This document shows, in pieces, positions 8,830 through 49,664 of a stretch of 60,391 nucleotides of DNA. The notes under the pieces are model-generated. The model ran no database searches and was not told the origin of the DNA. It saw nothing but the letters and a program-made list of their open reading frames with translations. Origin of the DNA: a virus. The position numbers and the translations under genes were made by a program. Location: the IMG/VR virus record IMGVR_UViG_3300015371_000036, positions 1 to 60,391 of that record; one strand, given 5' to 3'. The number at the start of each line of letters is the position of its first letter. Position 1 is the stretch's first letter.

Positions 8830-10458
8830 CTAAAGGCCACCGCGGGAGAACTCCGCCATCAGCGCCGGGGCCGACGCATCGAAGCCGACGACGTCGAGCA
8901 TCCCGCTATCGGCCGGGTCCGCGATCGAGAACTCGTTAGCAGCCATGCCCACCACGATCAGCCGCGCAGCGATCCCCGAACGCTCCCGGTAACGCTGGAG
9001 GGCTTGGCTCGGGTGTTCCTCGCCGGCCCAGGTCTCGTTGTCGGTGTAGATGACGAACGTGTCGACGTCGATGTGCTCGCGCAGCGCGTACTGCATCGGA
9101 ACCGCGCAGTCGGTCCCGCCGAATGGCATTGCCTCCATCCGGGTAATCACGTCGTCCAGCCGCTCCTTGCCGGTGAGCGGGAAGGGGAGGGCCGCGTCAG
9201 GTCCGCCGCGTCCCCCCCCAAAACCCCGCTCACTGTACGGCCCGGAGAACGCCATCGCCGTGCAGTAGGGCTCAGTTGCTGCAGTAACGAGGCCCATTGC
9301 GGCAGAGGCGTCCCGGACCGAAACCCCAGCCAGCCCGAGAACATCGAAGCCGGCCATCGAGCCAGAAACGTCAAAGGCGAGGAGCGTCCGCTTCCCGGCC
9401 GGGCGCACCTCCCTGAAGCCGGCGTAGAACGCCGCGTCGAGCGCGTCGACGACCGAAGCACACGGAACCCACTCCCCAGCACCACGAGCGCCGTGCCCGG
9501 CGGCATAGACACGCAGCGCCGAGAGGATCGCGATCGGGTGGACGCGCGCAGCGTGGAGGCGCTCCTGGTCGCCGAGCTGGTCGAGGACGATGCGCTCCGC
9601 CTCGCTGAACGGGACCAGCAGGCCAACCCGCGTCAGGGTGGCCAGGTTGCGGATCAGCGCCGTCATCGGCATGTCGGTTAGGAGGGCCGCCCAGACCTCC
9701 GGCGCTTTCAGGTGATCCGTCCGCACAGCCTCTCGCGGAAGCCCGTAGTCATGGATCAGGGCGGCCGTTTCTGCCGGCGACTCGGAAGCCTGCGCTCGGA
9801 TGAAGCCGTCGACCAGCCGCTGCGGCGGCACCGGGGCGATTCCCTTCGTGACCCAGCGATATAGAGCGTCGTGCTCGGGGGTGGGCGGATGCGGGTGCGC
9901 CGTGCGCAGCGCATCGAGTTGGGACCAGCCGTCGCGCTGTCGGTACTTGATGAGCTGATACGCGAGCGCCTCCGGCTCCTTGTCGTTGAACCAACGGCTG
10001 ACGCCGATCCGGCCGCGACGACCCCAACCGCCGAAAAGCTCTCGGAAGGCGCAGAAGTGCAGAAGGTGGGTGCCGGTCCTGGCGACCGCCGGCAGAGCGT
10101 CCCATGCCGCGCGCCGAACCGCCTCGGCCTCCGCGGCGGTCGCCATTGCGAGGGCGTAGAGCGCGGGGTCGTTCTTGGGGGCCAGTCCGCCTTCACTGAC
10201 TTCGCAGATCAACCGGATTGCTTTGATGCCGTCCGCGGCGATGCAGCGGCGGACGGAGGCGGCAGCGTCTGCAGTCAAAGGCCGCTCGCCCACGTAGTAG
10301 CTGCCCCCCTCGGTGCCGAGGATCAAGAACCGCCGTGCCAGGGTCCAGTCGTCAACCGACCAGACATAGCCGCCGGCCGAGTCCTCGACCTGGTGCTCGT
10401 GAATTGGCGCAGACTGAGGCGTCGCGCGGCTGCCGTGCTCGCGCAGGTACTGGCTCAC
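8830..10458 (-). CDS. rsr: Ro60/Rsr-like RNA-binding protein (TROVE + vWA)
   Basis: The 542-residue protein has the Ro signature RRFLILGTEGGSYYVGERPLT at 42-62, an alpha-helical TROVE region to about 355, and a C-terminal von Willebrand A domain with the MIDAS motif DVSGS at 363-367. FGGTDCAVPMQ and IYTDNETW further on are metal-site segments. Ro60 proteins form a ring that holds Y RNAs and the ends of misfolded RNAs and, in bacteria, can work with PNPase in RNA decay and repair. Start is GTG at 10458 with GGAGG seven bases before it. It has its own unit: a terminator closes the lysis operon upstream, and the 244-base leader is structured. Three small genes follow. Confidence 0.95.
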   Translation of the reverse strand: MSQYLREHGSRATPQSAPIHEHQVEDSAGGYVWSVDDWTLARRFLILGTEGGSYYVGERPLTADAAASVRRCIAADGIKAIRLICEVSEGGLAPKNDPALYALAMATAAEAEAVRRAAWDALPAVARTGTHLLHFCAFRELFGGWGRRGRIGVSRWFNDKEPEALAYQLIKYRQRDGWSQLDALRTAHPHPPTPEHDALYRWVTKGIAPVPPQRLVDGFIRAQASESPAETAALIHDYGLPREAVRTDHLKAPEVWAALLTDMPMTALIRNLATLTRVGLLVPFSEAERIVLDQLGDQERLHAARVHPIAILSALRVYAAGHGARGAGEWVPCASVVDALDAAFYAGFREVRPAGKRTLLAFDVSGSMAGFDVLGLAGVSVRDASAAMGLVTAATEPYCTAMAFSGPYSERGFGGGRGGPDAALPFPLTGKERLDDVITRMEAMPFGGTDCAVPMQYALREHIDVDTFVIYTDNETWAGEEHPSQALQRYRERSGIAARLIVVGMAANEFSIADPADSGMLDVVGFDASAPALMAEFSRGGL

Positions 10459-10687: not shown

Positions 10688-10701
10688 CGGCCGTGCGGCC
10701 G
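10688..10701. repeat. RTGC-loop hairpin
   Basis: CGGCC-GTGC-GGCCG forms a 5-bp stem with a GTGC loop (plus-strand reading). It lies directly between the endolysin stop and the terminator. One member of a family of intergenic hairpins with different stems but nearly constant loops (others at 25644, 30557, 31515, 31542, 38323, 38345 and 38372). Confidence 0.7.
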
Positions 10702-10702
10702 T

Positions 10703-11524
10703 TCAGACGAAGGAGCGGTATGCCTTCGGGCCGGGCAGGAGGTCCACGACGCCGCGATCGACCGGCGCGCTGCCGTGCCCGATCGTGGCAGTCCCGCCGT
10801 GGCCGAGCTTCATCTCGACATGGTGGAACGGGGCGGTGCCGAACAGGATCGCATCGCCGGAGTCCAGTGCCCCGCGGCTGACCGGCCGGCCGTGCGTACC
10901 GAGCGTGCCCGTGTAGCCGCCGCTGTAGTCCGCCCCGTTGGGATCGGGGAGGCCACAGGACTTGTAGACGGAGGTGAACCAGCTAGAGCAGTCCGACCGC
11001 TCGCCGGGCCGCTCGCCCGTGATGCAGTGGTCGACGTCCCAAGCCCCGGCCTGGCTATAGAAGTTCGGCCGCTTGCCTGATGCGCAGGCCGCGGCAGAGG
11101 CGAGCATTGCCGCCTGGAGCCGCTGACGCGGCGTCCCGCCCGTCACCTTGTTCCCGGTGATCGTGACGCCGTGTTCGCGTTCGAGCTTCTTGAGCTGGGC
11201 CTGTAGTTCCTCCTGGGTTTGTTCCAGGCCCTCGATCCGCTGGCAGAGCAGCTTCACTCGGCCAACCCACCACTGTGCGCGAAGGTGGGACTTGTACGCT
11301 CGGTGATGGCACCGAGCAGCGACCTTGTCCTCCTGCGCCGCGGCTACTAGATGGCCATCGGCGCGAAGGCTGTCGGCCTTCCGCTCCGCGACCTTCGCCT
11401 TGTGGTGGTTCGTGACGGCGCGCTTGTGGTTGGCGCTATACCGCCGCCTGGCTCGGGCCAGAAGGGTCTTGTTTAGGCCCAGCGCCTCGGCGATCTTGGC
11501 GAGGGCCTGTCGCAGCCGCTTCAT
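10703..11524 (-). CDS. endolysin, NlpC/P60-like (CHAP-type) peptidase
   Basis: The 273-residue protein has a long basic helical N-terminus (1-120, coiled coil around SLRADGHLV...QTQEELQAQLKKLEREHG). The C-terminal cysteine peptidase domain has C179 in RSDCSSWFTSVYKSCG and a His in FHHVEMKLGHGG. SGDAILFGTAPFHHVEMKL is typical of NlpC/P60 lysins that cut the peptide stem of peptidoglycan. No signal peptide is seen, so it needs the adjacent holin. Its start overlaps the holin stop as ATGA. The helical N-terminus probably targets or anchors it at the wall. Confidence 0.85.
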   Translation of the reverse strand: MKRLRQALAKIAEALGLNKTLLARARRRYSANHKRAVTNHHKAKVAERKADSLRADGHLVAAAQEDKVAARCHHRAYKSHLRAQWWVGRVKLLCQRIEGLEQTQEELQAQLKKLEREHGVTITGNKVTGGTPRQRLQAAMLASAAACASGKRPNFYSQAGAWDVDHCITGERPGERSDCSSWFTSVYKSCGLPDPNGADYSGGYTGTLGTHGRPVSRGALDSGDAILFGTAPFHHVEMKLGHGGTATIGHGSAPVDRGVVDLLPGPKAYRSFV

Positions 11525-24256: not shown

Positions 24257-24990
24257 TCAGCCGACGCGGGTGCGGAAGAAGGCGGCGATCTCCGCCGCAT
24301 CAGTGGTGATTTGCCGCTGGGGCGGCTCGGGGTCGGGCCGATCGGGATGCCGAACCCGCATCGGGTCCGGGAACCTGACCTTCCCGCCGTGCAGCGCCAC
24401 CAGGGTTGCCACGATCTGCCGGCCCCAGGCATCGCTGACTTCGATCAGCGTCGCCAGCAGCTCGTCCTGTTGGGTCCAGCCCGGCTGGTCCTCCCGGAAT
24501 GCCGCGGCGTCTGGCGGCAAACCGCGGATCAGGGCGAGCAGACGTCGCGGACCCTCGGTAGCGGCAGCCTCGCGGAGATCGAGCCGGTAGTAGTGCTGGA
24601 AATCGGCCTCTAGGAGAGGCCACTTCTCGGCTAGGAGGTCCGCGAGGCCGAGCGTTCCCCCGGCGTCACCCCATACTTGGCGAAGACGCCCTCGATGAAG
24701 CGGTCGAGTTCTTCAGCCGGGATGGCCTCCGTTTCGACGGCTTCCCGGAGCGTTCCAAACTGTTCCTGCCCGAGAATCGAGCGCAACATCCTGAACATCG
24801 GGAGCGGGCTGGCCCCCTGCGCTTCGACTTCGACCATGTCGAACAAGATCGTGTCCGGCAGGGTGGGCGGCAGCTTGAAGCGCACTCCGTTGAAGGTGAG
24901 CGTCTTCTCCTTCGGGGTTTTCTCGGCGCGAGCGGCGGCGGTCGCCTGCCGGCGACCGCCTTTGCTCCCGCTTCCGTTCGAGGCGCTCAC
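24257..24990 (-). CDS. tail assembly chaperone, long form by -1 frameshift (GT-type)
   Basis: The long form uses codons 1-112 of the short chaperone, then slips back one base at the minus-strand heptamer GGGGGAA (24661-24655). It continues TLGLADLLAEKWPLLEADFQHYYRLDLREAAATEGPRRLLALIRGLP, ending at 24257. That downstream frame is the classic siphophage T-region and has no ribosome site of its own near the junction. The fused product would have 244 residues. Such chaperones coat the tape measure and recruit tail-tube subunits. The tape measure follows within 20 bases. Confidence 0.82.
24631..24990 (-). CDS. tail assembly chaperone, short form (G-type)
   Basis: The 119-residue product starts at the GTG at 24990, overlapping the major tail protein stop. 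TLTFNGVRFKLPPTLPDTILFDMVEVEAQGASPLPMFRMLRSILGQEQFGTLREAV is typical of siphophage G-type chaperones. It ends in ERSASRTS shortly after the slippery site. The N-terminus is basic and Ala-rich. The short form is usually made in excess over the frameshifted form. Confidence 0.85.
   Translation of the reverse strand: MSASNGSGSKGGRRQATAAARAEKTPKEKTLTFNGVRFKLPPTLPDTILFDMVEVEAQGASPLPMFRMLRSILGQEQFGTLREAVETEAIPAEELDRFIEGVFAKYGVTPGERSASRTS
24655..24661 (-). other. programmed -1 ribosomal frameshift site GGGGGAA
   Basis: In the zero frame the codons are CCG GGG GAA; slipping back one base re-pairs as GGG GGA and leads to ACG CTC GGC. GGGGGAA is a heptamer used by many actinophage chaperone genes. The two frames overlap for about 30 bases around it. 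Confidence 0.82.
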
Positions 24991-25568
24991 GATCCCACCG
25001 CGAAGCCCGGCGAGTCGGTGTTGAACCAGGCGGGCGGCCCGCCTTCTGCCGGCTCCAGGACTTTGAAGGTGATCGGGAGCTGCGCCGACTCCGTCCGTTT
25101 GAAGCTCGCCTCGACCGCCTCCGTCACGTTCCCACGGGGGAACACGTAACGGAAGTGGACGTCGCCATCCTCGGCGTCGACCACGAGGCTCCGCTCGTCG
25201 AGCGGGTCGTCGGCTTCCGGGAACGTGTAGCTGAAGACCCCGCCCCCGTGCGCTTCGACGGTGCCGCCACCGAAGGCAAACGCCACGTTTTCCTCGTTCC
25301 ACTGCTGGAACGCGAACGTGAACTGGAGGTTCTGGGTCTGCTTGTCCCGGCGGATCGGCTGCCGCGACTGCCAGGCCATGAAGTCAGTGACCTCGGACCC
25401 AACAGAGAGCGTCGCGCCGTCCTCGGTGATATAGCCGGCCCCGACAAAGGCTTTGTTCAGGGCCGCCGTGGGGTCGTCCCCCACTTTGGGGAGCGGCGTC
25501 CCGACGGGTGCGAAATTAACCGCACCGTTGGCCGCGACGACCAGCTCGTCTGCGTCGTTCCACGCCAT
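24987..25568 (-). CDS. major tail protein
   Basis: The ATG at 25568 (ribosome site AAGGAA) gives 193 residues: MAWNDADELVVAANGAVNFAPVGTPLP, then VGAGYITEDGATLSVGSEVTDFMAWQSRQPIRRDKQTQNLQFTF. This is the tube-protein pattern of siphophages, with a beta-sandwich core that stacks as hexamers. It lies just before the chaperones as expected. A Gly-rich hairpin cluster precedes it. Confidence 0.88.
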   Translation of the reverse strand: MAWNDADELVVAANGAVNFAPVGTPLPKVGDDPTAALNKAFVGAGYITEDGATLSVGSEVTDFMAWQSRQPIRRDKQTQNLQFTFAFQQWNEENVAFAFGGGTVEAHGGGVFSYTFPEADDPLDERSLVVDAEDGDVHFRYVFPRGNVTEAVEASFKRTESAQLPITFKVLEPAEGGPPAWFNTDSPGFAVGS

Positions 25569-25615: not shown

Positions 25616-25661
25616 GAAGCCCCTGCGGGCTTCGGCGGGGGGCCGGGGCCATGCGGCCCCG
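25616..25661. repeat. two RTGC/NTGC-loop hairpins between tail genes
   Basis: GAAGCCC-CTGC-GGGCTTC at 25616-25633 and CGGGGCC-ATGC-GGCCCCG at 25644-25661 are perfect stems of 7 bp with 4-base loops. A related GCCCC-GCA-GGGGC lies at 25588-25600. They fill the gap between the head-tail connector stop and the major tail protein start, so late mRNA would fold here. Confidence 0.75.
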
Positions 25662-29574: not shown

Positions 29575-29611
29575 CAAAAGGCCCCCGGGGCGGTTGGGCC
29601 GCCCCGGGGGC
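29575..29611 (-). terminator. terminator after the major capsid gene
   Basis: GCCCCCGGGGCGG (29581-29593) and CCGCCCCGGGGGC (29599-29611) form a 13-bp perfect stem with a TTGGG loop. On the minus strand it is followed by CCTTTTGC. It lies eight bases after the capsid stop and would reduce transcription into the glycosylation and tail genes, keeping capsid mRNA in excess. Confidence 0.85.
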
Positions 29612-29619
29612 TACGTGGG

Positions 29620-30522
29620 TTAGGAACCCTCGCCGAAGTCAAGCTCGACAGCGCCCTCCGGCCGCGTCGCCGCGGTCCCGTAGAGCATGTCGATCGACAC
29701 TTCGTCTTTCTTGTAGGTGTTGTTGTAGGCGTAGACCACCCGGAGCGAGAGGCCCCGGTAGTTGCTGATCTCCACCTGGTTCGCGGCCACGCCGCGAGGC
29801 TGCTGGAGCGGCCGGGTCGCCAGCGTCACGGCCGTTTTGTGGAACGCGACGCCGTCCGCCTGGCCCTTGTCACCGGGGCCGGCCCCGAACACCTGCGACT
29901 CGTAGGTGTCGATGCCGAGCAGTCGGCCGATATTCGCCTCGCGGAGAGCGTCGGTGGACCCGGACTGGTTCGCCGTAATCAGCAGGTCGTCGCCGAGGCA
30001 GACCGAGATCGCCTCGGGCGACAGCACCGCCAGCCGGGACATCGACGGCAACTTGTTCCGCGACAGGATCGTGCGAGCGCCGCGGAAGACGAAGTTGGCC
30101 TCTTCGCTGCCGAGGGCGGCGAGCTGCCCGCCTTCGGCGGCTGCGCCGACAAGCGCTTCCGCGAGGTCTCCGTCCACCTTCTGCGCGATGGCTTCCATCG
30201 CGGGGTTGAGCACCTGGCCCTGGAAATCCTCGATCTCCAGCGTCATCTGCTCGTCCGTGACCGGGAAGGACACGTTCGCGATCGTGTCCAGCGTGACAGG
30301 CATGGAGTCCTCCTCCACGTCCTGGAGCTGGATGCCTTTTTCGCGGTCGAACTCTTCGGCCTCGAAGACGGCGGGCTTGCGGATGGTGATCGTGTCACCC
30401 TGCTTGCCCGCGAAATCGGAGTCGAAGTCGCGCCAGACCAGTCCGGCCAGAACGATCGTGTTGTAGAGCGTCGCCAGGCCAGTACGGGCAATGACGCTAG
30501 GCGTAATAAATACGTTCGCCAT
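29620..30522 (-). CDS. major capsid protein (P22 gp5-like / HK97 fold)
   Basis: The 300-residue protein starts MANVFITPSVIARTGLATLYNTIVLAGLVWRDFDSDFAGKQGDTITIRKPAVFEAEEF. GDTITIRKP, DSMPVTLDTIANVSFPVTDEQMTLEIEDF and EISNYRGLSLRVVYAYNNTYKKDEVSIDMLYG are typical of P22-coat-like major capsid proteins in siphophages. It has a GGGAGCC ribosome site. It follows the scaffold gene and is closed by a strong terminator. Confidence 0.9.
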   Translation of the reverse strand: MANVFITPSVIARTGLATLYNTIVLAGLVWRDFDSDFAGKQGDTITIRKPAVFEAEEFDREKGIQLQDVEEDSMPVTLDTIANVSFPVTDEQMTLEIEDFQGQVLNPAMEAIAQKVDGDLAEALVGAAAEGGQLAALGSEEANFVFRGARTILSRNKLPSMSRLAVLSPEAISVCLGDDLLITANQSGSTDALREANIGRLLGIDTYESQVFGAGPGDKGQADGVAFHKTAVTLATRPLQQPRGVAANQVEISNYRGLSLRVVYAYNNTYKKDEVSIDMLYGTAATRPEGAVELDFGEGS

Positions 30523-30556: not shown

Positions 30557-30627
30557 ACCGCTGTGCAGCGGTGCGTGAGGGGGCGCTATGCAGTACCCCG
30601 GTGGTGCTGGCCCGGCCGGAGCCGGGC
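30557..30627. repeat. intergenic hairpins between scaffold and capsid genes
   Basis: ACCGCT-GTGC-AGCGGT (30557-30572) is perfect with a GTGC loop. GGGGCGCT-ATGC-AGTACCCC (30580-30599) has one mismatch and an ATGC loop. GCCCGGC-CGGA-GCCGGGC (30610-30627) is a further stem with a different loop, just after the scaffold stop. Nearly all of the 110-base gap is therefore hairpins in the late mRNA. Confidence 0.75.
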
Positions 30628-30632
30628 GCAAG

Positions 30633-31514
30633 TTACTTGTCGCGCCGAATGCGCTGGAAGTGCTCCTCGACGGACATATCCTCCAGCCCCTTGTCGGCAC
30701 CCTTCCCCTTGCCGCCGTCCGCGCTGCCGGACGGTTTCGACGGGCGGGCGTCCTCGGCCAGCCGCGGCCGATCTTCGAGGATCTCGGCTAGTGCCTGACC
30801 AAGTGCCTCCGTCTGCACTTTGCCGTCGTCGTCGAAGATGTCCTCCTCGTCGACGTCACCGAGCGAGAGCTTCCGGTCGAGGAAGACCTGGGCATCTTCA
30901 GGATCGGCGAAGCGGACGGTCTTCGCGTCGTCGCCTTCGCCCACTTTCACGCCGCGGCTGGCGAGACGCGCGACAGCGGCCTCCAAGCGGTCCTTGCGGC
31001 GCTCCTTCTGCGCCTTGGTCAGCGCCGCCTGCTCGCCTTCCTCGCGGGCCTTCTCGACCGCTTTCTCGTGCTCGGTCTTCTCGGCGTCCGCGCGTTTTTT
31101 GGCGTCTTCCTCCAGCTTCTTCCGTTCGCGTTGCTCCCGTTTGAGCTTTCGCTCGGCGGCCTTCCGACCCGACTCATGCTTTCGGGCCATCTTCTTCCAG
31201 TCGATGGTCCCGCCGCCCTCGTCCTCGCCGTCGCCGTCGCCCTCGTCGCCCTCGCCTTCGCCCTCGCCTTCGCCCTCTTTTTCTTCCTCGCCTTCTTCAC
31301 CGTCACCATTCCCTTTGTCGTCGCCGTCACCGTCAGGCTCGCCGTCGCCGCCGCCCTCGTCCTCGCCCTCCTCGGGCGCACCTCCCTGAATGACCGGGAG
31401 CACGAGGCGGTCGGCAAGGAACAGATGGAAGCGCCAGCCTTGCGGCGAGCGAACCTCGACCGAGCGGTGGAACAGGACAGCGAGCAGCGCCCGCAGGCGC
31501 GGTAGAAACGTCAT
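30633..31514 (-). CDS. capsid scaffolding protein
   Basis: The 293-residue protein has a hydrophobic N-terminus, then an extreme acidic, Gly-rich run (about 45-105: EEGEDEGGG..., GEGEGEGEG). A long charged coiled coil follows (about 108-190: KKMARKHESGRKAAERKLKREQRERKKLEEDAKKRA), then a C-terminal SADGGKGKGADKGLEDMSVEEHFQRIRRDK. Helical charged proteins directly before the capsid gene are scaffolds; the basic C-terminal tail would bind coat protein. The acidic run comes from near-repetitive DNA at 31210-31380, prone to slippage. Confidence 0.83.
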   Translation of the reverse strand: MTFLPRLRALLAVLFHRSVEVRSPQGWRFHLFLADRLVLPVIQGGAPEEGEDEGGGDGEPDGDGDDKGNGDGEEGEEEKEGEGEGEGEGDEGDGDGEDEGGGTIDWKKMARKHESGRKAAERKLKREQRERKKLEEDAKKRADAEKTEHEKAVEKAREEGEQAALTKAQKERRKDRLEAAVARLASRGVKVGEGDDAKTVRFADPEDAQVFLDRKLSLGDVDEEDIFDDDGKVQTEALGQALAEILEDRPRLAEDARPSKPSGSADGGKGKGADKGLEDMSVEEHFQRIRRDK

Positions 31515-31557
31515 GGCCGTGCGGCCTCCTTCGGGGGTTCGGGCACCATGCGGTGCC
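31515..31557. repeat. RTGC-loop hairpins at the scaffold gene start
   Basis: GGCC-GTGC-GGCC (31515-31526) touches the scaffold start codon: on the minus strand the order is AAGGAGG, the hairpin, then ATG, so the stem overlaps the ribosome site spacer. GGCACC-ATGC-GGTGCC (31542-31557) is a second perfect stem upstream. Folding could expose or hide the start. Confidence 0.75.
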
Positions 31558-36341: not shown

Positions 36342-37898
36342 TCACCAGGTCGCGCGCCCGTAGTCGGGCTTGTTCAGCACCCCGGCCTCGATGGCGTCGC
36401 CGCGCGCCGCCCAGGCGAGCACGGCCGCCATAGCCAGGTCGATCTTGCGCGGGCTTTTCGCGCCGTCCTTTCGGATGACCCAGAGGAACGTGTCGTCGTC
36501 TGGGTCGCGCATCTTCGTCGCCCGCTTCACGCAGTTGCCGACGTGGCGGACGAACGCCTCGTTGCCGTCGTGCGAAAGCCGGCCGGCCGTCCAGTCCGTA
36601 TGCCAGGCACGGATCGCGTAGGCAATCCGTTTGAGGTTGTTGGTCCAGAACTGGACGACGCGCTCCGTGCCGAACCGCCCCGCCCACTCGTCCATCTCGG
36701 TCTGCCAGTACGGGGGGTCGCCGTAAAGCCGCCAGACGTCGTAAGTCTCGAAGAGCGCCTCGACCGCTTCGTGAACCTCCGGGGCCGGCACTTCCCACGG
36801 GTCGTCCCACCGCAGCGCCACCGGCCGCTCCCAGAGGCCCAGGACGAACTGATGGCCAGTCTCGACCTCGGTGCCGATCAGCGCCGTGGCATCGTGGTGC
36901 TTCGATCCGTCGAAGCCGGCGACGACCGTGGCCCCGGGCGAGACCTTGTGCTCGCTGGCCAGCCCGGAGAAGACCTCGACGTCGAACGCCTTATCCATGC
37001 CGGCGACGACCCGGTTGGCGAAGAATCGCTCCGCCTGGTTGGGATCGCGCGGCACCAGCTCCTCGATCTCGGCCTCGATCCTGTCGAGGTCGACCCACCA
37101 GGAACCGGCGTAGACCTTCCGAAGCACCCGTCGCCGCTCGGCCTTGTTGCGGAGCGACCCCTTCGGTGGCGTCGGGTAGTCAACGAGGACGTCGGCAAGG
37201 TCGGCCTCGTAGGTGGTCTGCGCAACCGATAGCTCGGACGGCTCCCAGGCGTTGGTCGTTTCCAGCGCCCGGCCCTGCATACCGGCTAGGTTCCGGCGCT
37301 GGGTGTCCGCCAGCTTGACGCCGCCATTGTGGGCGGTCCAGGAGTGGGTCTCGTCGTGGACGGCGAAGGTGAGGCGCTGCCCGAGGCGCGAGACGTGAGC
37401 GCTCGTCACCGGCTCGATCAGGCCAGCGCTGCCGTAGGCCCCCTGGACGTTGATTCGCGTCTTCCCGGTGTCCGGGATTTCAGCCTTCAGCGCCCCCAGC
37501 TCGATCATGGGGACGAGGGCCGTCCAGACGTTGTCGGTCTGATCTTCCGAGACCGCAACGACCTGAATCCAGGGCGTCGCCCACGGCCGCCCGACCGGCT
37601 CGCCGGCCTCATCCCAGCCGTCGAAGCAGACGGGGCCGGCCGCCTCGGCGCAGATGATCGCCGCGCTGAGTGGCCCCTTGCCCCACTTCTGCGGGCGCAC
37701 CATCAAGGCCCGGCGGAAGAGGAAGCGCCCGTCCTCGTCGATCGCGTAGAACCAAACGACGAAACGCAGCTGGTCGAGCGTCAGCTCGAACGGTAGGCCG
37801 GCCCGCTCGCCGTCAGGGATCGCGCAGTTTGCCTCGATCCACTTCGCCACCCCGTATCCGAGGCTGCGCTCAGGAATCCCCTTCGGCGGCAGCAGCAC
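36342..37898 (-). CDS. terL: terminase large subunit
   Basis: The 518-residue packaging motor starts at GTG. Residues 68-78 (VRPQKWGKGPL) form a variant Walker A, and FAVHDETHSW (178-187) is Walker B with the catalytic Glu. The C-terminal nuclease has GFDGSKHHDATAL (D330) and LYGDPPYWQTEMDEWAGRFG. It overlaps the small subunit by 29 bases and is followed by the portal. The nuclease-first Asp and layout match other actinophage TerL proteins. Confidence 0.95.
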   Translation of the reverse strand: MLLPPKGIPERSLGYGVAKWIEANCAIPDGERAGLPFELTLDQLRFVVWFYAIDEDGRFLFRRALMVRPQKWGKGPLSAAIICAEAAGPVCFDGWDEAGEPVGRPWATPWIQVVAVSEDQTDNVWTALVPMIELGALKAEIPDTGKTRINVQGAYGSAGLIEPVTSAHVSRLGQRLTFAVHDETHSWTAHNGGVKLADTQRRNLAGMQGRALETTNAWEPSELSVAQTTYEADLADVLVDYPTPPKGSLRNKAERRRVLRKVYAGSWWVDLDRIEAEIEELVPRDPNQAERFFANRVVAGMDKAFDVEVFSGLASEHKVSPGATVVAGFDGSKHHDATALIGTEVETGHQFVLGLWERPVALRWDDPWEVPAPEVHEAVEALFETYDVWRLYGDPPYWQTEMDEWAGRFGTERVVQFWTNNLKRIAYAIRAWHTDWTAGRLSHDGNEAFVRHVGNCVKRATKMRDPDDDTFLWVIRKDGAKSPRKIDLAMAAVLAWAARGDAIEAGVLNKPDYGRATW

Positions 37899-38328
37899 GC
37901 TTCCGCAGCTCCCTGGTCTTCTCCGCGTCCGCTCGCTGCACGTCGAGGTCGACGACCTCGGCGGGCGGGGCGACCCGCCAGCGCCGGTCCTGCTTCCCCT
38001 TCGGCGTGAGGCCGAGCGCCTCGCGGACCTGGCGAAGCTCGGAGAGCACCGAGCCGGTGCCCTTGCGGACCCAGGACTCGTGCATGTAGCAGAGGTGTTC
38101 GACTAGATCGACGTCCGCCGCGCCCCACATCTGCGCTGCCGGGTCCGCCCACCAGGCGGCCCACGACCGAGCAGTCCGCGTCGACCAGCCGGCCTCGTCC
38201 GGTGGTTCCGGCAGATCGGGGATGGGTGGATCAGTCAGCGGGCGCAGCTCCACCCACTCGCCATGTAGCGGCACGTTTCGCCTGCGCCGGTTCTCGCGGA
38301 ACTTGGGCGCTGGCCCTCGTCCGGCCAT
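37870..38328 (-). CDS. terS: terminase small subunit
   Basis: The ATG at 38328 has AAAGGAGG six bases before it and gives 152 residues. MAGRGPAPKFRENRRRRN is the start seen in many actinophage small terminases. STRTARSWAAWWADPAAQMWGAADVDLVEHLCYMHESW and LRQVREALGLTPKGKQDRRWR follow. The start codon is inside an RTGC-loop hairpin. It is the first gene of the leftward late operon. Confidence 0.85.
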   Translation of the reverse strand: MAGRGPAPKFRENRRRRNVPLHGEWVELRPLTDPPIPDLPEPPDEAGWSTRTARSWAAWWADPAAQMWGAADVDLVEHLCYMHESWVRKGTGSVLSELRQVREALGLTPKGKQDRRWRVAPPAEVVDLDVQRADAEKTRELRKRAAAAEGDS

Positions 38329-38383
38329 GCGGCCTCCTTTCTGGGCGAAGCCGTGCGGCTTCGCAAGCGGCGGCCATGCGGCC
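38323..38383. repeat. three RTGC-loop hairpins at the head of the late operon
   Basis: GGCC-ATGC-GGCC (38323-38334), GCGAAGCC-GTGC-GGCTTCGC (38345-38364) and GGCC-ATGC-GGCC (38372-38383) lie in tandem. Stems differ but the loop is always A/G-TGC on the plus strand. The first includes the terS start codon. They would form the 5' leader of the late transcript. Confidence 0.8.
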
Positions 38384-38390
38384 CCGCGGT

Positions 38391-38435
38391 GCCCCGGCAA
38401 ATTGTCAGGAGTACCCCTTGACAAATTGCCGGGGC
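38391..38435 (+). promoter_or_regulatory. palindromic promoter/operator, copy 1
   Basis: GCCCCGGCAAATTGTCAG and TTGACAAATTGCCGGGGC are 18-base inverted arms (16 matching) around GAGTACCCC or a close variant. The right arm begins with a consensus -35, TTGACA (38418-38423). No clear -10 follows, though AATGGT is 17 bases on. About 75 bases from the right arm to the start of the next gene are repeated at copy 2. Confidence 0.75.
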
Positions 38436-38483: not shown

Positions 38484-38894
38484 ATGAGCGCCACCGCCAA
38501 GCGCCCCACGACCAAGAGCGAGCGTCATGTACGAATCGGCCGCCTCATCCACAACGACGAGACGAACGCCGCCCAGAGCCTCGTTGAATTGGGGGCGCGC
38601 GTCGCCCTGGCAACCGAGCTGGAGCCGGAACTCACCCAGCTTCTGGAAGAGTTCGGCGAGGCGGACGAAGAGACGGTGAACCTCGCCGCGAAGATCGCCG
38701 CCCTCGTGACCGAGATGCCGGAGCCGGCCTTCAGCATCGGCGACGAGGTGATCTACAAGGAGGACGGCCGGCCGCTCGGCAAAGTCGCGGATCGCTACAT
38801 CGGGGAGCGTGGCGACGAGTGGGAGTACGAGGTCCGCAGCCGGACGTATGGCTCAAACCCCTACGGCGAGCGCGAACTCGCGGCCAAAGCCTGA
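38484..38894 (+). CDS. paralog family protein 1, first gene of rightward accessory operon
   Basis: The 136-residue protein has an N-terminal helical half (SERHVRIGRLIHNDETNAAQSLVELGARVALA) and a C-terminal region FSIGDEVIYKEDGRPLGKVADRYIGERGDEWEYEVRSRTYGSNPYGERELA that looks like a small SH3-like barrel. Two further paralogs (39655, 40035) share this layout. AGGAAG precedes the ATG. Function unknown; expression from a strong repressed promoter suggests an early host-takeover role. Confidence 0.68.
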   Translation: MSATAKRPTTKSERHVRIGRLIHNDETNAAQSLVELGARVALATELEPELTQLLEEFGEADEETVNLAAKIAALVTEMPEPAFSIGDEVIYKEDGRPLGKVADRYIGERGDEWEYEVRSRTYGSNPYGERELAAKA

Positions 38895-49189: not shown

Positions 49190-49451
49190 AGGCCAGTCTA
49201 CACACGCGGGGGGGAGCGGCAGCGACCCGGCAGGGGGGAGGCCGACCGCCGCTCCGCCGCTCCTCGCGCTCCTCGCGCGCCTGGTGGCCAGACCGGGCAC
49301 GGGAGATTGGCGGCGTTGGCGCAGGATGCCCTCTATGGCGAGCGGGCCAATCACCTGGGCTCTTTCGTCGAAGGGGCACGCCGGGCCGGACACCCTCGAC
49401 CTCCAACTAGACGGACCTCTCGCCTTCGCACCGGGACCGTCAGAGCCGCAA

Positions 49452-49524
49452 TGGCGGGGGCGGGACTCGAACCCGCGACCTCCAGGTTATGAGCCTGGCG
49501 AGCTACCAACTGCTCCACCCCGCT
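49452..49524 (-). tRNA. tRNA-Met (CAT) with initiator-like features
   Basis: A 73-base cloverleaf folds on the minus strand: acceptor 49518-49524 with 49453-49459, D arm GAGC/GCTC, anticodon stem CCAGG/CCTGG around CTCATAA (anticodon at 49491-49489), and T arm GCGGG-TTCGAGT-CCCGC. Position 1 is A opposite C72, so the end pair is mismatched as in bacterial initiators (usually C1-A72). A11-U24 in the D stem is also an initiator mark. The anticodon stem has two of the three G-C pairs expected. CCA is not encoded. An initiator-like tRNA is the best reading; an elongator Met tRNA is possible. Confidence 0.88.
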
Positions 49525-49664
49525 AAGAAAAAGTTGCGCACTACCCCGAGCGTCGGCTAGGGTGGCGGTGCGTAGCCTCCCGGTTCCGATTCTTGGCCGA
49601 GACCGGACGAACGGCCCCGCCCCCGATGAGGGATCGTTCGCCACCGCCGGGGGGCTACGTCCAC

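Follow-up and report, generated by a model that had tools for sequence, protein, structure and literature searches.

The leader of the terminase small-subunit gene (TerS) of an uncultivated siphovirus contains three short hairpins with almost the same loop, and similar hairpins recur in other gaps of its late operon, raising the question of whether these structures have been kept by selection and, if so, what recognizes them. The original prediction counted at least eight perfect stems with a loop of ATGC or GTGC on the plus strand, and took the family for a possible phage-wide signal of post-transcriptional control or RNA processing. Here we report where the hairpins lie, how they vary among genomes, and which phage protein varies with them.

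Hairpins of the window virus

The window, i.e., the whole stretch of DNA analysed, is an uncultivated siphovirus record of 60,391 bases with 68% G+C. Its capsid and terminase proteins are closest to those of actinobacterial phages, at less than 45% identity to every isolate, and the minus strand carries its late genes (TerS, TerL, portal, protease, scaffold, capsid, major tail protein, and tape measure). Gene starts were called by a simple script of our own, and some are surely wrong. Four of the late genes are central to this analysis:

37870-38328, minus strand: terminase small subunit TerS (Pfam Terminase_7, PF25673, E 1.4e-13)
30633-31514, minus strand: head scaffolding protein, proposed here to read the hairpins (phrog_4708, E 6.7e-14)
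29620-30522, minus strand: major capsid protein (phrog_283, E 4e-60)
24987-25568, minus strand: major tail (tube) protein (Pfam PF25681, E 2e-32)

Since every gene involved lies on the minus strand, the loops carried by the mRNA are GCAY, not RTGC; they read GCAC or GCAU and are closed by a C-G pair, once by U-A. All eight predicted perfect stems were recovered in place, as were a variant (CTGC on the plus strand) and an imperfect hairpin (loops in square brackets):

38323-38334, minus strand: hairpin at the TerS start, GGCC[GCAU]GGCC, 4 bp stem
38345-38364, minus strand: TerS leader hairpin, GCGAAGCC[GCAC]GGCUUCGC, 8 bp, 16 nt 5' of the AUG
38372-38383, minus strand: TerS leader hairpin, GGCC[GCAU]GGCC, 4 bp, 43 nt 5' of the AUG
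31515-31526, minus strand: scaffold hairpin, GGCC[GCAC]GGCC, 4 bp, between SD and AUG (31514-31512)
31542-31557, minus strand: scaffold leader hairpin, GGCACC[GCAU]GGUGCC, 6 bp, 27 nt 5' of the AUG
30557-30572, minus strand: major capsid leader hairpin, ACCGCU[GCAC]AGCGGU, 6 bp, 34 nt 5' of the AUG
30580-30599, minus strand: imperfect major capsid leader hairpin, GGGGUACU[GCAU]AGCGCCCC, its stem containing a single A-C mismatch and a single G-U pair
25644-25661, minus strand: major tail protein leader hairpin, CGGGGCC[GCAU]GGCCCCG, 7 bp, 75 nt 5' of the AUG
25616-25633, minus strand: major tail protein leader hairpin with a variant loop, GAAGCCC[GCAG]GGGCUUC, 7 bp
10688-10701, minus strand: hairpin CGGCC[GCAC]GGCCG, 5 bp, immediately 3' of a gene whose end is at 10703; a Ro60-like gene follows after 229 nt

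The suggested overlap with the starts or ribosome sites of TerS and scaffold was observed at both genes. The TerS AUG (38328-38326) consists of loop bases 3-4 and the closing G of the 38323 hairpin, and the TerS SD, AGGAGG, overlaps the 5' arm of the same hairpin. The 31515 hairpin lies between the SD and the AUG of the scaffold gene, with the last bases of that SD, also AGGAGG, inside its stem. The 31542 hairpin has orthologues with different stems in relatives, the tail protein leader hairpin is present in G007 and G014 as well, and the mismatch of the imperfect capsid hairpin, at the third pair from the loop, is found in L005 and in Thermobifida phage P318 too. No start lies near the 10688 hairpin, and its membership of the family is uncertain. 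The loops were indeed as constant as proposed, but the stems were not as different: the core GCCGCAYGGC is common to six of the eight within the window, and the real stem variation is found between genomes.

Other features of the window were noted in passing. Between the divergent TerS gene and a gene at 38484 lies a long imperfect inverted repeat (38391-38434, CCCCGGCAAATTGTCA..TTGACAAATTGCCGGGG) with -35-like TTGACA/TTGTCA, possibly a divergent promoter or operator. Directly 3' of the capsid gene (29581-29611, minus strand), a strong G+C-rich hairpin with a 13 bp stem precedes a U run and is likely a partial terminator; strong hairpins stand at the equivalent place in several relatives (L005, L006, L007, L009, and L013). 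A search of the window against Rfam at the gathering score found no hairpin family, only a tRNA, namely tRNA-Met with a CAU anticodon (49451-49525, minus strand; 67.6 bits). The window also encodes a Ro60-like protein (8830-10458, minus strand; TROVE domain E 2.6e-31, Ro60 vWA domain E 1.6e-57); no match to a Y RNA family was obtained at the gathering threshold. This protein was considered as the hairpin reader and set aside, as nothing ties it to the hairpins.

Enrichment and stem covariation

The late-operon gaps (2.6 kb) contained eight GCAY hairpins with stems of at least 4 bp, compared to a mean of 0.16 and a maximum of 2 in 2000 dinucleotide shuffles, and the antisense strand of the same gaps contained none. 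Sense coding sequence of the window yielded two in 40.7 kb, i.e., 0.05 per kb versus 3.1 per kb in the gaps. Equal frequency in shuffled or coding sequence, which would have refuted the family, was therefore not what we observed. Among the 26 tetraloop hairpins in these gaps, GCAT and GCAC occurred four times each and every other loop once. Stem pairing was then compared at 155 sites anchored on the loop and closing pair only, where pairs 2, 3, 4, and 5 form in 82, 81, 62, and 53% of sites, as opposed to 67, 45, 36, and 40% with permuted partners. Stems thus covary while loops stay conserved, in agreement with the proposed selection on structure, and an operator hairpin's expected property, a stem kept by pairing around a loop of conserved identity, is present (81% vs. 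45% at pair 3, with loop enrichment). Two trivial origins were rejected. Intrinsic terminators do not fit, as the hairpins lack U runs and are followed by an SD or leader sequence. A loop favoured in general does not fit either: a scan of viral contigs for CGAAGCC-N4-GGCTTCG returned 80 loci, none with a GCAY loop.

Hairpins in relatives of the window

Relatives comprised about 22 metagenomic genomes at 49-77% identity, obtained by capsid-protein searches, and a set of TerL relatives. Like hairpins with other stems were found before the same four genes: at TerS and the major tail protein gene, immediately 5' of the SD at scaffold, and some 30-130 nt ahead of the start at capsid. A second copy often covers the start codon, e.g., AGGAGGCC[GCAU]GGCC, with the AUG in the loop. 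In the window's clade, G[AC]A[CT] (GMAY) loops made up 45 of 204 leader hairpins versus 39 of 1925 coding ones (Fisher 8e-26); out of 256 leader loops, GCAT, GCAC, GAAT, and GCAG were the most frequent. GMAY enrichment was absent from distant MCP relatives (Streptomyces and Nonomuraea prophages). Within any one genome the second loop base tended to be the same: most genomes use C, five (L007, L013, L176, L178, and L180) use A, and L010 and L011 mix the two. This pointed to a trans-acting factor.

In the capsid leaders of L010, L011, L012, and L174, the hairpin loop and 3' arm are complementary to the capsid start region, the loop matching the start itself (GCAC with GUG in L010 and L011, GCAU with AUG in L012 and L174). 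Anti-start-codon pairing, GCAY being the complement of RUGC, was an attractive explanation for some capsid leaders but was rejected, as genomes with GAAY loops do not fit it.

A conserved scaffold motif and phages selected by it

Comparison of the scaffolds revealed one conserved segment, W-K-x-x-[AS]-R-[KR]-x-E, in which W106, R111, E114, and K118 (window numbering) are invariant:

31161-31202, minus strand: scaffold motif DWKKMARKHESGRK, codons 105-118, including His113 (31176-31178), whose identity varies with the loop base

In an AlphaFold2 model of one chain without RNA, the motif opens a long, confidently predicted helix (106-144) that follows a disordered acidic segment. A profile search of the PDB with the scaffold alignment returned no relative, and tblastn of the full-length scaffold against isolated phages gave no match. 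Since scaffolds diverge fast, the short motif was searched as a DNA pattern instead: viral contigs were scanned for DNA encoding WKxx[AS]RKxExxAK only, with no RNA information, to give an independent set. After removal of near-duplicates, 59 of 67 motif-selected scaffold leaders held at least one G-X-A-Y or G-N-X-A-Y hairpin, compared to 11.3 in shuffles, and the leaders held 125 such hairpins in all versus about 12.5. As many as four copies are present in one scaffold leader, and the final one frequently covers the SD, e.g., CCC[GCAC]GGGAG. Such overlap, expected of an operator hairpin of the MS2 kind and present at TerS and scaffold in the window, was seen in 32 of 68 motif-selected leaders. 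Since the nearest copy leaves the SD free in about half of the leaders, not all sites need block the ribosome.

One scaffold residue and one loop base

Genomes with A in the loop have scaffolds reading SR(K/R)NE, and those with C read ARKHE or similar. Scored over 82 leaders (the motif-selected set plus the window's clade; 14 of 96 leaders gave no call), base X of the loop (N)XAY was A with all 23 Asn scaffolds and C with all 59 His or Trp scaffolds, and no discordant case was observed. Two isolates agree, as Thermobifida phage P318 and Streptomyces phage Ibantik combine CC[GAAAU]GG elements with SRKNE or SRTNE. On a tree built without the motif, residue and loop base changed 12 times each; well-supported branches hold four independent residue switches, all four concordant, which are too few for a sign test or for significance alone. 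Leader and hairpin sequence counts are likewise not independent. When each of 149 scaffold alignment columns was tested singly, only that of window His113 explained 100% of the loop base, the next best reaching 58%. Loop length followed the residue before Trp less perfectly, with Asp accompanying tetraloops in 48 of 50 cases and other residues accompanying pentaloops in 32 of 36. An operator hairpin would also be expected to have a cognate protein of matched specificity; for this there is strong co-variation with one scaffold residue and no binding data.

Matching hairpins at other genes

Matching hairpins occurred in 76 of 91 scaffold leaders, in 17 of the 66 leaders belonging to the following gene (almost all of them from the window's clade), and in 22 of 381 other leaders, mostly of TerS. 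In non-scaffold leaders of the same contigs, those of the Asn type had 26 A and 5 C, and those of the His/Trp type 4 A and 34 C (p 6e-10); in coding sequence the rule appeared only as a weak trend (29 and 30 vs. 44 and 106). The TerS leader of the Mycobacterium smegmatis phage Shauna1, of the Asn type, contains CCCC[GAAAU]GGGG and UUCCC[GAAAU]GGGAGGAAUGUC-AUG. Since matching sites lie kilobases from the scaffold gene, a linked module of leader and scaffold is not easily the explanation.

The annotated Shauna1 scaffold start (L508, NC_041989, 4393 onward) lies upstream of the hairpin CCC[GUAAC]GGG. A conserved start farther downstream, ATGTCTGATGAT, is the more likely one, in which case the operator has been annotated as coding sequence.

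Other scaffold classes

In 53 leaders of a second scaffold class (protein pattern LGDAGKxALDxMK; L388-L467), GCAAC pentaloops were found in 26 versus 0.2 in shuffles, GCAAU in 20 versus 0.1, and GCAAG in 14 versus 0.1. A third lineage, from Streptomyces/Nonomuraea prophages (L014-L041, L186-L218), has one or two hairpins with CAGGN pentaloops before the scaffold gene, and the copy closest to the start often holds the SD, e.g., CGCTC[CAGGA]GGGCG; these look like a parallel operator system. Both the GCAAN and the CAGGN classes were tested less strictly than GMAY/GNXAY.

Proposed mechanism and alternatives

We consider it probable, with good though not full confidence, that the hairpins are translational operators to which the scaffold binds through the start of its long helix (105-118), repressing initiation; both binding and repression are inferred. 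The basic start of this helix would contact the hairpin and recognise a loop of the form G-(N)-X-A-Y, in which residue 113 is predicted to read base X, His or Trp going with C and Asn with A. Scaffold in excess, not yet assembled with capsid protein into procapsids, would bind the copy overlapping the SD or AUG, and copies upstream may help by raising occupancy, although cooperation between copies is inferred, as is the coupling of this feedback to assembly. Binding would block initiation on the scaffold and TerS mRNAs, joined in the window's clade by those of the capsid and major tail proteins; repression as the sign of the control is likewise an inference. It also seems likely to us, if a little less firmly, that in many actinobacterial dsDNA phages scaffolds act as sequence-specific RNA-binding repressors with a one-residue code, each class having its own loop (GMAY/GNXAY, GCAAN, and perhaps CAGGN), so that a single assembly protein would keep packaging and scaffold synthesis in step, along with capsid and tail synthesis in some clades.

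The alternative that survives best, though we think it unlikely, is that the operators are bound by another phage or host protein and that the scaffold residue follows the loop through co-inheritance with the leader. The leader does adjoin the scaffold gene, modules may travel together, and no biochemical proof makes the scaffold the reader. However, linkage should render many alignment columns informative, yet only one is perfect; leaders of genes other than scaffold obey the rule as well, and another scaffold class comes with another loop.

Far less credible to us is a role in RNA processing or mRNA stability, with the hairpins placed at the 5' ends of late transcripts and needing no dedicated protein. 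Phage T4 and others do use intergenic hairpins, and those described here stand in leaders of highly made proteins, but such a role leaves unexplained a strict loop on free stems, start codons inside hairpins, and a loop base that changes jointly at several genes of a genome and in step with one scaffold residue. Of the two functions originally suggested, post-transcriptional control is thus supported by covarying stems, conserved loops, overlap with SD or start, and co-variation with the scaffold, while RNA processing has no support of its own.

Slighter still is the case for a protein-free RNA switch, in which the capsid leader hairpin would use its 3' arm for alternative pairing with the spacer between SD and AUG. 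This arm does match the capsid start region (AGCGG with CCGCU-AUG in the window, GCAUAGCGG with CCGCUAUGC in L012, and GGCGGC with GCCGCC-AUG in L013, L175, L178, and L180), and alternative pairing of this kind remains possible for the window's capsid leader in addition. However, the match concerns only the capsid gene of the window's clade, any hairpin that looks like the start region will trivially pair with it, the match to AUG is lost with GAAY loops, and the scaffold residue is left unexplained. DNA-level sites for packaging or as operator or promoter elements, palindromic by chance, are the least credible of all: the TerS and scaffold genes do lie near packaging functions and the core is nearly palindromic, but orientation is fixed relative to transcription (8 vs. 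0 in the window), stems vary yet stay paired, the SD and AUG dictate where the hairpins stand, and the GCAY loop lacks self-complementarity.

Relation to known systems

Translational operators read by the scaffold would have partial counterparts elsewhere. Wyckoff and Casjens (1985; cited in PMC5744158) reportedly established that the scaffolding protein gene of phage P22 is autoregulated, and this scaffold is said to control its own synthesis post-transcriptionally in a manner tied to capsid assembly; to our knowledge, no RNA site has been defined. The likeness lies in a capsid scaffolding protein proposed to control its own synthesis, autoregulation being inferred in the window, and a P22-kind system would require a site within the scaffold gene's own leader, which is present here (76/91 vs. 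22/381). Unlike P22, the sites of the window are mapped, occur in arrays, and are found at TerS too and, in its clade, at capsid and tail genes. The MS2/R17 coat protein blocks translation by binding a small hairpin whose loop is conserved and which covers a start site; it is a beta-sheet dimer from an RNA phage that represses the replicase gene at one site. Small conserved-loop hairpins over start sites and a capsid-building protein as their proposed reader are shared features, whereas the phages described here are dsDNA phages with a helical scaffold and several hairpin copies, at its own gene and at others. In lambdoid phages, the basic helical peptide of N reads the loop of the short boxB hairpin, peptide and loop being matched and differing among related phages. 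That system serves antitermination near promoters, whereas the present hairpins stand at translation starts, and no sequence relation has been shown.

T4 RegA, gp32, and gp43 repress translation at initiation regions of several or of their own mRNAs, RegA at unstructured, A+U-rich sites, while gp32 and gp43 are replication proteins (PMC3014915). Start-associated repeats of actinophages (SAS-like in clusters K and EF, 17-bp in cluster O, and 18-bp inverted repeats in EG) are short, often just upstream of start codons, and of unknown function (PMC7302621, PMC4351075). These have a fixed sequence including the arms, in contrast to the present hairpins, whose arms vary with pairing around a fixed loop at head and tail genes. 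Membership of such repeat families was therefore rejected, as the arms differ between copies and genomes. No earlier description of the hairpins was found in the open-access literature, subscription papers being mostly outside the scope of the search.

Implications

The hairpins were mapped also in laboratory-grown M. smegmatis phages (268 close records). Because the proposed operators are short and mapped in these phages too, the coupling of scaffold synthesis to assembly, a question that goes back to P22 in 1985, becomes directly testable. If our reading is true, head assembly in a large group of phages is under the control of a scaffold that binds RNA, and proteins so far annotated only as scaffolds gain that role. 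It would also provide a compact peptide-hairpin recognition code, as well as new modular tools for RNA binding.
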